Below, piece by piece: positions 13,424 to 34,172 of a DNA stretch of 36,942 nucleotides. The position numbers were made by a program, and so were the translations under genes. Below the pieces are notes generated by a model that worked only from the letters and a program-made list of their open reading frames with translations, was not told where the DNA came from and did no database searches. Positions within the stretch are counted from its first letter, which is position 1. Every line of letters starts with the position of its first letter. Origin of the DNA: Natronolimnohabitans sp. A-GB9 (GTDB lineage: Archaea > Halobacteriota > Halobacteria > Halobacteriales > Natrialbaceae); assembly GCF_030848565.1 (NCBI RefSeq), contig NZ_JAVDDV010000026.1, positions 1 through 36,942 on the forward strand, in the 5' to 3' direction.

Positions 13424-13894
13424 ATGTCGGAGCCAAAGACGAACTACACGGACTTCATCGGTGAGGTACAGCATCGCATCGAAGCGGGAACGCAAGCCGA
13501 GGCCGTCCGCACGACGCGGGCCGTCCTCGAGACGATCGGCGAACGCGTCGACGAGGGTGGCGCGACCGACATCGCCAGTCCGCTGCCCATGGAAATCGAC
13601 CGGTATCTGTTGCACGTCGATCACAGCCAGCAGTACGACTTCGACGAGTTCGTCGAACGGGCCGTCGACCGGATGAACTACGACGATCTCGACCTCGAGA
13701 CGGCGTACGGAAAACCGTCGGGCATCGACGAAGCCGAGGCCGTCTATCGGATCAAGGCCGTGACCGCACTCCTAAGCGAGACGGTTCCCGGCGGCGAGAT
13801 CGCCAACGTCGAGGCACAGTTCCCCGAGGAGTTCGAGGAAATCTTCGAACTGGTCGACGCCGAGACCCAGCCCTGGGAGCACCAGGAGACGTGA
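13424..13894 (+). CDS. DUF2267 protein, copy 1
   Basis: 156 residues. The core, NYTDFIGEVQHRIEAGTQAEAVRTTRAVLETIGERVDEGGATDIASPLPMEIDRYL, matches DUF2267, an all-helical acidic protein of unknown function. The C-terminal half (VYRIKAVTALLSETVPGGEIANVEAQFPEEFEEIF) is also typical. A paralogue lies at 28699-29088 in this window. Compared with that copy it has an insert of about 16 residues (RMNYDDLDLETAYGKPS) between the two halves. DUF2267 genes often sit near UspA-type stress genes, but this copy does not. Confidence 0.85.
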   Translation: MSEPKTNYTDFIGEVQHRIEAGTQAEAVRTTRAVLETIGERVDEGGATDIASPLPMEIDRYLLHVDHSQQYDFDEFVERAVDRMNYDDLDLETAYGKPSGIDEAEAVYRIKAVTALLSETVPGGEIANVEAQFPEEFEEIFELVDAETQPWEHQET

Positions 13895-28702: not shown

Positions 28703-29088
28703 TCGGTCGCCAGTTCGACTCCCTCGAACAACGGGTCGAAGTCGTCGGGGAGCTGGTTTCGGACCTTCTCGATGTTTCCGGCCGGGACGATCTCGGCGAC
28801 GATGGCGAGTAGCTGCTGGGCGTGGTAGTTGGCGTCGGCCCGATCGACGCCCTCGCGCTCGGCGACTCGATCGAGGAACTCCTGATAGTCGAACCGCTGG
28901 CCGTGGTCGGCCTCGGTGAGGTACCGATCGATCTCCATCGGTAACGGACTGGCGAGATCCGTCGCTTCGCCCTCGTGGAGCCGTTCGCCGAGCGTCGTCA
29001 GGACCGCTCGGGTCGACCGCACCGCCTGCCCGAACTGTGCGTACTCGAGTCTGTGCTGGACCTGGCCGATGAATTCCTTGTAGTTCAT
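28699..29088 (-). CDS. DUF2267 protein, copy 2
   Basis: 129 residues, paralogue of the gene at 13424-13894 (NYKEFIGQVQHRLEYAQFGQAVRSTRAVLTTLGERLHEGEATDLASPLPMEIDRYL). It is shorter, lacking the 16-residue insert and tail of copy 1. Its stop overlaps the start of the methyltransferase gene by 4 bp. Together with the UspA genes on both sides, this suggests a stress-related unit; the function of DUF2267 is unknown. Confidence 0.85.
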   Translation of the reverse strand: MNYKEFIGQVQHRLEYAQFGQAVRSTRAVLTTLGERLHEGEATDLASPLPMEIDRYLTEADHGQRFDYQEFLDRVAEREGVDRADANYHAQQLLAIVAEIVPAGNIEKVRNQLPDDFDPLFEGVELATE

Positions 29089-29257
29089 GGTCGTGTTCGT
29101 GGGTCGGAGTCCGTGTTCGTCTGTTGCAGTCCATGTGAGACGGCCATCCGGGAATCGGACGGTCGACGTCTCGAGGCGAGCACGACGCTCTCCCGGGCCG
29201 AATGACGCCGTCGAGCCCGATAGCTGTACGTGTGGACGCACGGACCGCTCAGATCGT

Positions 29258-30776: not shown

Positions 30777-31601
30777 TCATTCGAGTGTCCTGACGGTCAG
30801 TACCGGAACCGCCGCGTTCGGAACGACTCGTTGTGAGACGCTCCCGACGACGAGTCGCTCGAGGTTCGACTTGCTCTCGGTCCCCATCACCAGCAGATCG
30901 ACGGCTTCGTCGGCGACGTACTCGAGAATGACGTCGGTAGACGGGCCACGCATGACCGCCTTCGTCGTCTCGATTCCACGGTCGGCCGCCCGCTCGGCGA
31001 CGCCCGCCGTCGTCTGCTCGCCGTGTTTCACGAACGCCTCGCGGAGCTCCGCACTCGGGGAGTCCATGTCGACGGCGTACAGCGCGTGAAGCTGTGCGTC
31101 ACAGGCGTCGGCGAGGTCGATCGCGTTCTCCGTCGCCGCCGTCGTCCCCGTCGAGCCGTCCGTCGCGAGACAGACGTCGTCGATGCGGTCGTCGTCCCAC
31201 GAGCCGTCCACACCGACCGTGAGCACTGGTCTCCGTGCCTCCCGGATCACCTCGAGGGCGACGCTTCCCAGTAGCGCCTGTCGCAGCCCGGTCCGGCCGT
31301 GGGTGCCGACGACGATCGCGTCGACGTCCGCCTCGTCGGCGTAGGCGAGGATTTCGGTCGCCGGACGGCCCGAGCGGACGACGGCGTCGGCGCTACAGCC
31401 GGCCTCGAGCGCCCGGGACGCGACCGATTCCGCATCCGCCTCCCGCCGTTCGTGGCGTTTCGTCTCGTCGCCCCGCCGATCCTCGGCGACTGACAGGGCG
31501 TGCACCGTCGCCTCGAGCGTTCGGGCGAGCGAGATCCCCGCGGTCGCGGCGTCGGTCGCCACGTCGCTGCCGTCGGTCGCGATGAGTACGTCGTCGTACA
31601 T
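30777..31601 (-). CDS. Tandem UspA-domain stress protein, copy 2
   Basis: 274 residues from the ATG at 31601. Two UspA domains: 1-130 (YDDVLIATDGSDVATDAATAG ... VVGTHGRTGLRQALLGSVALEVIREARRPVLTV) and 138-274 (VCLATDGSTGTTAATENAIDLA ... LVMGTESKSNLERLVVGSVSQRVVPNAAVPVLTV). The first domain has a complete nucleotide-binding motif G-T-H-G-R-x-G...G-S-V; in the second the corresponding segment reads GTESKSNLERLVVGSV, without the first His-Gly pair. It is divergent from the E1-like gene at 31695, with 93 bp between starts. Confidence 0.88.
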   Translation of the reverse strand: MYDDVLIATDGSDVATDAATAGISLARTLEATVHALSVAEDRRGDETKRHERREADAESVASRALEAGCSADAVVRSGRPATEILAYADEADVDAIVVGTHGRTGLRQALLGSVALEVIREARRPVLTVGVDGSWDDDRIDDVCLATDGSTGTTAATENAIDLADACDAQLHALYAVDMDSPSAELREAFVKHGEQTTAGVAERAADRGIETTKAVMRGPSTDVILEYVADEAVDLLVMGTESKSNLERLVVGSVSQRVVPNAAVPVLTVRTLE

Positions 31602-31694
31602 ACGGCTCCGTACAGCGACCACGGCCTTTGCTCTGTTGGCGGTTCCCGCAGCTGTGGACGATCCGTTAACTGGGTCGCCGTGGAGGGATCACGT

Positions 31695-32504
31695 ATGGGT
31701 GACTCGCTCGACTCGCGCCAGCGCGAGCAGTATTCGCGCCAGCTCATGATCGATTCGATAGGGGAGTCCGACCAGCAGCAACTGCTCTCGAGTCGTGTCC
31801 TCGTCGTCGGTGCTGGCGGGCTCGGCTCGGCAGCGATCCAGTATCTCGCGGCAGCCGGCGTCGGGACGATCGCGATCGTCGACGACGGACACGTCACGCG
31901 CTCGAACCTGCAGCGACAGATCGTCCACACCCTCGACGACATCGGCGAACCGAAAGTCGACAGTGCAGCCCGGTTCGTCGAAGCGCGCAATTCCGACGTC
32001 ACGGTCGAACGACACGCCACCCGGATGACAGTGGACGTCGCCGAGTCGCTGTTCGAGGAAGCCGACGTCGTCGTCGACGCCGTCGACGGGTTCCCGACGC
32101 GATTCATCCTCAACGACATCGCTCGGCTCGCCGGCATCCCGTTCGTCCACGGCGCGGTGTACGCCTTCGAGGGGCAGCTGACGGTATTTCGCCCCGGCGG
32201 TCCCTGCTACCGGTGTCTCCTTCCAGCAGTTCCGGACGCCGACGTGGCACCGTCGGGCGAGCCGATGGGGATCTTTCCGACGGTCCCCGGGACGATCGGC
32301 TGTCTCCAGGCAACCGAAGCGCTCAAACACCTCCTCGAGGTCGGCGAACCCCTCGACGATCGGCTGTTGCGCTACGACGCGACGGACGAGACGGTCCTCC
32401 GGACGCCCCTCGAGCGCGATCCCGACTGTCCCGTCTGTGGACCCGATGGGATCGACTCGATCGACGACCTCGAGTACGACGACCGGTATCGCATCGAGCG
32501 CTGA
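31695..32504 (+). CDS. UbaA/MoeB/ThiF-type E1-like adenylyltransferase lacking the catalytic Cys
   Basis: 269 residues, nearly the length of haloarchaeal UbaA. Visible: ATP-binding VLVVGAGGLGSAAIQYLAAAGVG (G39-x-G-G-x-G44), IVDDGHVTRSNLQRQ, GEPKVDSA, VVVDAVDGFPTRFILND, VHGAVYAFEGQLTVF and two zinc-binding pairs (C171-x2-C174, C245-x2-C248). The adenylation core is intact. UbaA and MoeB carry a Cys in the segment before GVLG...PG; here that stretch reads APSGEPMGIFPTVPG, with no Cys. C203 (GCLQATEA) is a different, structural position. It may adenylate a SAMP-like partner without forming a thioester. The ATG at 31695 is the best start. Confidence 0.85.
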   Translation: MGDSLDSRQREQYSRQLMIDSIGESDQQQLLSSRVLVVGAGGLGSAAIQYLAAAGVGTIAIVDDGHVTRSNLQRQIVHTLDDIGEPKVDSAARFVEARNSDVTVERHATRMTVDVAESLFEEADVVVDAVDGFPTRFILNDIARLAGIPFVHGAVYAFEGQLTVFRPGGPCYRCLLPAVPDADVAPSGEPMGIFPTVPGTIGCLQATEALKHLLEVGEPLDDRLLRYDATDETVLRTPLERDPDCPVCGPDGIDSIDDLEYDDRYRIER

Positions 32505-32563: not shown

Positions 32564-32575
32564 TTTTTATTATAC
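32564..32575 (+). promoter_or_regulatory. TATA region for the PPOX-like gene
   Basis: The AT-rich TTTTTATTATAC is centred about 25 bp before the ATG at 32595, so the transcript is probably leaderless or nearly so. It would also drive the downstream beta-like gene, which starts 2 bp after the PPOX stop. Confidence 0.6.
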
Positions 32576-32594: not shown

Positions 32595-33041
32595 ATGTCC
32601 AGTGAGAAATACGGCGTCGTAATGGACGAGGATGAGATAGCTGACTTTTTGGAGGCGCAAGGAATCGGAACGCTGTCCATGGGGAACGAAACGGGCGGAT
32701 ACGGGATTCCGATGTCGTTTGGATACGATCGCGCCGGGGATCGGTGTCTCCTGAACCTTTCGTTCGGGGGCGACGACACGAAATCGGAGTACCTCAAAGA
32801 GGGCAACCAGGTGACGCTTTCGACGTACGAGTGGCACGACGTCGACGAGTGGCGAAGCGTCGTCGTTCGTGGCACACTCGAGGAGGTTTCGATAGCCGAA
32901 AACCCCCACGTCGCAGGGATTTTCGCGGCGTATTCGAAGCTCGCTTCGCGAGACGTGTTCCAACAACCGCTCGAAGAACTCGACTTCGAGTGGTACGAGT
33001 TGCAGATCGAGGACGTACACGGACGACAGGCCGTCGAGTAG
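32595..33041 (+). CDS. Pyridoxamine 5'-phosphate oxidase-fold flavoprotein
   Basis: 148 residues from the ATG at 32595, preceded by a strong TATA element. A split-barrel flavin-binding protein of the PPOX-like group: MDEDEIADFLEAQGIGTLSMGNETGGYGIPMSFGYDRAGDRCLLNLSFGGDDTKSEYLKEGNQVTLSTYEWHDVDEWRSVVVRGTLEEV. The segment GIGTLSMG...GYGIPMSF is the flavin-contacting strand pair. Haloarchaea have many such proteins that bind FMN or F420. Its substrate is unknown. The beta-like gene follows 2 bp after the stop. Confidence 0.85.
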   Translation: MSSEKYGVVMDEDEIADFLEAQGIGTLSMGNETGGYGIPMSFGYDRAGDRCLLNLSFGGDDTKSEYLKEGNQVTLSTYEWHDVDEWRSVVVRGTLEEVSIAENPHVAGIFAAYSKLASRDVFQQPLEELDFEWYELQIEDVHGRQAVE

Positions 33042-33043
33042 TC

Positions 33044-33703
33044 GTGCCGGCGACAGCCACGTACTGCGGACGAAGGGGTGACCGGAACTATCGGACCGAC
33101 GGAGGAACGGACGGCGGTGTCCTCGTCGGCGTTCGAACGACGGCGGTGGTCCTCCTCGCAGCGGACACGCGGACGAGTCGCGGCGGAGTGGTGACGAGCG
33201 ACGAGACGCGAAAACTCGAGGCGGTTCATCCGTCGGCCGCCATCGGTTCACCCGGTGCGCTCGGTGACACCGCGTCGGTCGTCAGGGAACTCCGTGCCGA
33301 AGTCGATCGCTACGAGGACCGTCACGGACACCGGATGCGCGTCCCCACCCTCGCGACGGTCGCCGGTCGGAAACTCCGATCGAGGACCCCACCGGGTGCG
33401 ACCTTCGTTCTCGGCGGCGTCGACGAGACCGGATCGTACGTCTTCACCGTCGGCGGCGAGGAGGGGGTCCTCGAGGCCGACTACGCCGCCGAAGGGAGCG
33501 GGCGGGAGGCCGCCGCTGGCGTTCTCGATCGGCGTTACGAGGAGTCGCTCTCCCTCGAGACCACACGATCGATCGTCGCCGATGCCCTCGAGAGCGCCGT
33601 CGAACGCGACGCCCGGACCGGCCCCGCAGTGGATCTCGCGGAGATCCGCGAGGGAGGGGTCACTGGAAAGCGATACGACTCGATCGACGCTATCAGACCC
33701 TGA
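33044..33703 (+). CDS. Proteasome beta-like protein lacking Thr1
   Basis: 219 residues from a GTG at 33044, 2 bp after the PPOX stop. Residues 25-210 align without gaps with archaeal 20S proteasome beta subunits (GVLVGVRTTAVVLLAADTRTSRG; EAVHPSAAIGSPGALGDTASVVRELRAEVDRYE; FVLGGVDETGSYVFTVG; DYAAEGSGREAAAGVLDRRYEES; ALESAVERDARTG). Asp41, Arg43 and Lys57 match Asp/Glu17, Arg19 and Lys33 of the active site, but the catalytic Thr1 position is Gly25, and no G-T cleavage site exists there. A Thr three residues earlier (Thr22) is out of register. It may be a non-catalytic ring subunit or a regulator. Confidence 0.8.
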   Translation: MPATATYCGRRGDRNYRTDGGTDGGVLVGVRTTAVVLLAADTRTSRGGVVTSDETRKLEAVHPSAAIGSPGALGDTASVVRELRAEVDRYEDRHGHRMRVPTLATVAGRKLRSRTPPGATFVLGGVDETGSYVFTVGGEEGVLEADYAAEGSGREAAAGVLDRRYEESLSLETTRSIVADALESAVERDARTGPAVDLAEIREGGVTGKRYDSIDAIRP

Positions 33704-33722: not shown

Positions 33723-34172
33723 TCAGCCGACGGGCACCGTCAGCACCGGGACATCGACCGTTCGGACGACTCGCTCGGTCGTACTGCCGAGGAGATACCT
33801 GGGCAGTCCACGCCGTCCGTGGGTCCCCATGACGATCAGGTCGGCCTCGATTTCGTCGGCGTACGCGACGATCGTCTCGTCGGGTGCTCCCTCGCGGACG
33901 ACCGTGATCACCTCCACGTCGTCCAGTCGACGGGCGCGTTCGTCGACGGTCGTGACCGCGCGTTTTGCCTCCGTCTCGAGGGGTTCGATCGTCGCCTCGA
34001 AGTCGTCGCGGTCGCCGACGTAGTCGACCTCGAGCAGTTCGGCGACGTCGATTACAGACAGTGCGTAAACGGTGGCATCGTACTGCCGTGCGAGGTCGAG
34101 GCCGTAGTCGATCGCCCGCTCTGCCGTATCGCTCCCGTCGGTCGGAATGAGGATCGTATCGTACATGTTCAT
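33723..34172 (-). CDS. Single UspA-domain stress protein
   Basis: 149 residues from the ATG at 34172 (a start two codons on, at 34166, is possible). A complete UspA domain: MYDTILIPTDGSDTAERAIDYGLDLARQYDATVYALSVID, then LIVMGTHGRRGLPRYLLGSTTERVVRTVDVPVLTVPVG with the full nucleotide motif. A TATA-like ACTATAT lies about 35 bp upstream of the start. The stop is 19 bp from the convergent beta-like gene. With the genes at 26968 and 30777 it makes three UspA proteins within 7.2 kb. Confidence 0.92.
   Translation of the reverse strand: MNMYDTILIPTDGSDTAERAIDYGLDLARQYDATVYALSVIDVAELLEVDYVGDRDDFEATIEPLETEAKRAVTTVDERARRLDDVEVITVVREGAPDETIVAYADEIEADLIVMGTHGRRGLPRYLLGSTTERVVRTVDVPVLTVPVG

Follow-up and report, generated by a model that had tools for sequence, protein, structure and literature searches.

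The question raised by this locus is what a proteasome beta-like protein does once its catalytic threonine (Thr1) has been replaced by glycine. The gene for such a protein, hereafter the Gly1 gene, lies in the 36,942-nucleotide stretch of Natronolimnohabitans sp. A-GB9 DNA that was analysed as a whole (the window), together with the following features.

30777–31622, minus strand: universal stress protein of 281 amino acids on the other flank; an orthologue lies beside the E1 or Gly1 genes in L051 and L040.
31695–32504, plus strand: paralogue of the SAMP-activating E1 UbaA (NF047750, 359 bits; cut-off 450).
32565–32574, plus strand: TATA-like AT-rich element, spotted by eye, 21–30 nt upstream of the ATG of the PPOX-like gene.
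32595–33041, plus strand: PPOX-like protein (pyridoxamine-5'-phosphate-oxidase-like, PF12900).
33044–33703, plus strand: Gly1 gene, a beta-type proteasome subunit paralogue (GTG start, TGA stop, 219 amino acids).
33044–33115, plus strand: N-terminal tail of the Gly1 protein (24 residues), predicted to be disordered, with D19-G20 conserved and the Gly-Thr autocleavage site absent.
33723–34151, minus strand: universal stress protein, convergent neighbour; in L051 and L040, its orthologue likewise adjoins the Gly1 gene.

The boundaries of the Gly1 reading frame were exactly those of the original prediction. The encoded protein matched PF00227 with 109.2 bits (gathering score 22.4; E = 2.6e-31) over profile positions 4–189 of 189, that is, over the full length, and matched beta chains in the PDB at E = 4.5e-21; its score against the archaeal beta family TIGR03634 was 134.9 bits and did not reach the equivalog cut-off of 224 bits. 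The host genome contains three PF00227 genes, namely psmA, an ordinary psmB (…NKTGTTTIG…) and the Gly1 gene, whose product is 39% identical to that of psmB; since psmA and psmB are present separately, the Gly1 gene is an additional gene. The best of five AlphaFold2 models, computed from seven sequences, had a pLDDT of 75.7 and a pTM of 0.76 (the other four were poor, 39–46) and showed a beta-sandwich with helices H1–H4, with low confidence at residues 1–22, which are predicted to be disordered, and at 45–57. Foldseek matched this model to 20S subunits at E about 1e-13. These matches show a genuine member of the proteasome family that is closest to the beta subunits of archaea, and the proposal of a beta-like protein with Gly in place of Thr1 held, the PF00227 match, the fold model and the register all agreeing.

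The proposed gap-free register, which places Gly25 on Thr1, was reproduced against beta subunits of the same and related genomes and in a 12-member orthologue alignment: D41, R43, K57, S152 and D189 correspond to D17, R19, K33, S129 and D166, respectively, and T192 stands at S169. A search for orthologues in 391 genomes of the class and 125 of the family yielded 12 members including the window, all of them within the 125 family genomes, and Haloterrigena sp. H1 contributed one more, making 13; the named members are Natronorubrum bangense, Natrinema limicola, Natrinema hispanicum (two strains), Halobiforma haloterrestris and Haloterrigena sp. H1. Scanning contigs with the alignment as query recovered six named loci, and with a single protein as query none. 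Whether Gly is conserved at the Thr1 site could thus be read from the homologues, and it was present in all 13 (the window protein and 12 others), as were unchanged D17, R19, K33, S129 and D166 and a Thr at Ser169. The Gly at the oxyanion position Gly47 was kept in the window protein only, the others having Asp (9), Ala (2) or Thr (1). A sequencing or assembly error, or a frameshift, in an ordinary psmB is refuted by the 12 independent Gly1 orthologues and by the genome's own separate psmB; nothing was found in favour of such an error, and we regard its probability as negligible.

Four mature-numbered positions, T1, A20, V49 and S169, which never vary among the active beta subunits sampled, were never matched in the Gly1 clade. 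They lie mostly around the active site. Catalysis by Gly1 proteins is thus very unlikely, whereas the remainder of the pocket is constrained. A still-active hydrolase with another nucleophile might be proposed, because 10 of the 13 orthologues carry Gly-Thr-Leu-Val (GTLVG motif) at the N-terminal site, with Thr at position 2, and Lys33 is retained; Ser129 would be a further candidate. However, the window (GVLVG), G407 (GVVIG) and G387 (GILVG) have Val or Ile at position 2, a shift by one residue would flip the direction of the side chain in strand S1, and the oxyanion Gly47 is gone in 12 of 13, so that this reading is highly improbable. Exposure of an N-terminal Thr, either Thr22 or one created by another start, was also considered and rejected: Thr22 is unconserved and the residue after Gly1 in the window is Val26, and a shifted Thr therefore cannot be the nucleophile. 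The absence of a fitting pro-peptide cleavage site was likewise borne out, as the Gly-Thr autocleavage site is missing and all 13 proteins have Gly at Thr1. The suspected loss of proteolysis is strongly supported by the conserved Gly1, the loss of Gly47 in 12 of 13, and the failure to find any Thr-bearing orthologue or alternative start. The Gly-Thr-Leu-Val pattern reads as if GTTTVG had lost one Thr codon, and the loss of Thr1 is most simply explained by one event in the ancestor of the clade.

When 392 genomes of the order were searched with a profile, the clade stood clearly apart: its members scored 319 bits or more, whereas no other beta subunit exceeded 214 bits. No clade members were found beyond the window's family in the 391 class and 392 order genomes sampled. 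All non-clade beta loci inspected, including the next-best matches, contained Gly-Thr1. The Gly1 clade was monophyletic (support 100/100); its stem measured 0.87 changes per site, and the clade was placed among haloarchaeal PsmB rather than on a separate deep branch. Rates within the clade were about 10 times those of the canonical beta subunits of the same genomes; dN/dS was 0.26–0.55, well under 1 in all pairs, compared with 0.07–0.21 for canonical psmB, the canonical values being approximate because those ORFs included as many as 60 codons upstream. No internal stops were present in the 13 frames. In G365 (L083, 287–568, minus strand), a truncated remnant of the Gly1 gene with an internal stop directly follows the E1 paralogue, which points to an ancestral E1–Gly1 pair that can be lost. 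Selection on Gly1 genes is relaxed but purifying, and some lineages have lost the gene. The patchy occurrence, the G365 remnant and the relaxation of dN/dS relative to canonical beta would suit a decaying duplicate without present function, but 13 open frames in several genera with dN/dS well below 1 in every pair, and five pocket residues invariant in 13 of 13, which argues for long selection after Thr1 was lost, make mere decay improbable. Several relatives (L067, L069, L074) have a second adjacent pair of alpha and beta proteasome genes; in G388, G321, G085, G291 and G399, 40–50 kb separate this pair from the Gly1 gene. The window's genome is without the second pair.

In the window, the E1 paralogue, the PPOX-like gene and the Gly1 gene follow one another in this order, all flanked by universal stress protein genes. 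The stop codon of the PPOX-like gene lies 2 nt ahead of the Gly1 start codon (GTG), which makes co-transcription of the two probable, and the TATA-like element is a possible promoter for both; a PPOX-like gene was not found at the equivalent place in related islands. The order is Usp281–E1–Gly1–Usp171 in Natronorubrum bangense (L051) and Usp281–Gly1–Usp171, without E1, in G293 (L040), and an orthologue of the 281-residue stress protein adjoins the E1 paralogue in L082, L083 and L086. Universal stress protein genes adjoin the Gly1 gene in five genomes, and three of these five islands contain a paralogue of the proteasome chaperone PAC2, about 5 kb from the Gly1 gene in G407, G387 and G293 (L051, L039 and L040; coordinates L039:4688–5464). 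The PAC2 orthologue of the window's genome is on another contig (L090:8085–8759), with UspA genes around it. DUF2267 proteins are encoded in the window at 13424–13891 (plus strand) and 28714–29148 (minus strand), as well as in L039, L051 and L053. In the stress islands of relatives, they occur alongside PRTases and CBS-domain proteins. The C-terminus of the CBS protein weakly resembles the ribosome-hibernation factor S30AE, and the combination suggests a gene cluster of the dormancy type.

The UbaA/MoeB-type E1 paralogue was found in 10 of the 125 family genomes (window, L051, L082–L089). All 10 copies lack the catalytic Cys of UbaA, a PSGEPMG-type segment replacing PDCATTG, and retain the ATP-site and zinc-Cys motifs; an ordinary UbaA-like gene is also present in all 10 genomes. 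A fixed E1–Gly1 operon proved only partly true: both genes are intact in two genomes, where they are adjacent or nearly so, and no remnant of the Gly1 gene was found beside the E1 paralogue in G404. PADLOC did not match the Gly1 protein and gave only generic ThiF-domain matches for the E1 paralogue.

In a second subclade (Natrinema, Haloterrigena sp. H1 and G247), the gene immediately upstream of the Gly1 gene encodes an AdoMet synthetase paralogue, and this neighbour, being neither a stress nor a proteasome gene, counts against a role in proteasome rings under stress. The AdoMet synthetase paralogue (L042:8323–9480, with equivalents in L041, L043, L046, L052 and L059) is on the same strand, about 30 bp upstream, and the pairing is retained in G247 despite different wider surroundings. 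These two kinds of neighbourhood, the long stem and high rate, the retention of D17, K33, S129 and D166 without a nucleophile, and the E1 paralogue that is adjacent in G000 and G407 and precedes the remnant in G365, would all fit a protein acting outside the 20S particle, alone or in its own ring, with a binding or scaffold role (for example with the E1 or AdoMet synthetase paralogue) in which the old active-site cleft binds. However, the protein has no extra domain and the ordinary size and fold of a beta subunit, and the only clade-specific invariant residues, Gly25, Ser69 and Thr192, all lie in or close to the former active site, so that no new binding surface is evident; we give this role a lower, though not small, probability.

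The Gly1 protein descends from haloarchaeal PsmB, has the beta fold and has lost the nucleophile, and its gene has been retained. At about even confidence, we propose that it is a dedicated non-catalytic beta-type 20S subunit that would be mixed into beta-rings, or would modulate their assembly, under stress. This proposal draws on the three PF00227 genes, the active-site pattern in 13 proteins, the monophyly, the profile gap, dN/dS, the fold, the vicinity of PAC2 and archaeal precedent. Unable to autoprocess, the protein would keep its short N-terminal tail or have it trimmed by neighbours; under stress, it may join the beta-ring with ordinary PsmB, possibly helped by the PAC2 paralogue of the stress island, and the mixed ring would then have fewer active sites, or assembly would be blocked or altered, similar to the effect of inert beta subunits in Sulfolobus and eukaryotes. 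Identity to canonical beta in the interface helices was 44% (H1), 31% (H2), 36% (H3) and 40% (H4), no better than in the rest of the protein, and thus neither supports nor excludes ring entry. The fast evolution relative to canonical beta, the patchiness (12/125) and the G365 pseudogene mean that the protein may act elsewhere or be vanishing. In a broader and rather speculative extension, which we rate as a long shot, the stress island would be a silenced copy of the tagging and degradation machinery, in which the Gly1 subunit, the Cys-less UbaA-type E1 and the PAC2 paralogue jointly divert or brake SAMP-directed proteolysis in stress or dormancy.

Archaeal proteasomes are usually taken to contain homomeric beta-rings with 14 active sites. 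In eukaryotes, the non-catalytic subunits beta3, beta4, beta6 and beta7 have the beta fold and no working nucleophile; as in the Gly1 protein, for which ring membership is our proposal, there is no self-made active site, and the origins are independent. Compared with archaeal PsmB (TIGR03634), the Gly1 protein is alike in fold, length of the mature part, D17, R19, K33, S129 and D166, and the shared GSG motif, but differs in lacking Thr1 and the Gly|Thr autocleavage site, in the loss of Gly47 in most members, in S169T, and in its score far below the equivalog cut-off. A seemingly catalytically inert beta subunit, Saci0662, has been reported to share a mixed ring with a catalytic subunit in Sulfolobus acidocaldarius (PMC4569737); Saci0662 is the major structural subunit of its ring, whereas the Gly1 protein, from another lineage, is an accessory beside a complete canonical alpha/beta set. 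Proteasome-like homologues outside the standard 20S particle, such as Anbu, BPH and connectase, have characteristic active-site residues (PMC8665760), and the Gly1 protein differs from them in nesting among haloarchaeal PsmB. Archaeal cells can raise alternative proteasome subunits when conditions change (PMC13022661), and PbaB, a PAC2 homologue, activates the 20S particle in Pyrococcus (PMC3605417).

A literature search limited to open-licence papers found no published description of the haloarchaeal Gly1 clade; dead beta subunits as such are already known. If it is indeed a dead beta paralogue beside an active set, it would represent an independent start on the path by which eukaryotes reached mixed rings with few active sites, and because the hosts are culturable, the idea is testable. 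If the Gly1 protein acts together with the island's E1 and chaperone paralogues, these archaea would regulate proteolysis through silenced versions of its components.
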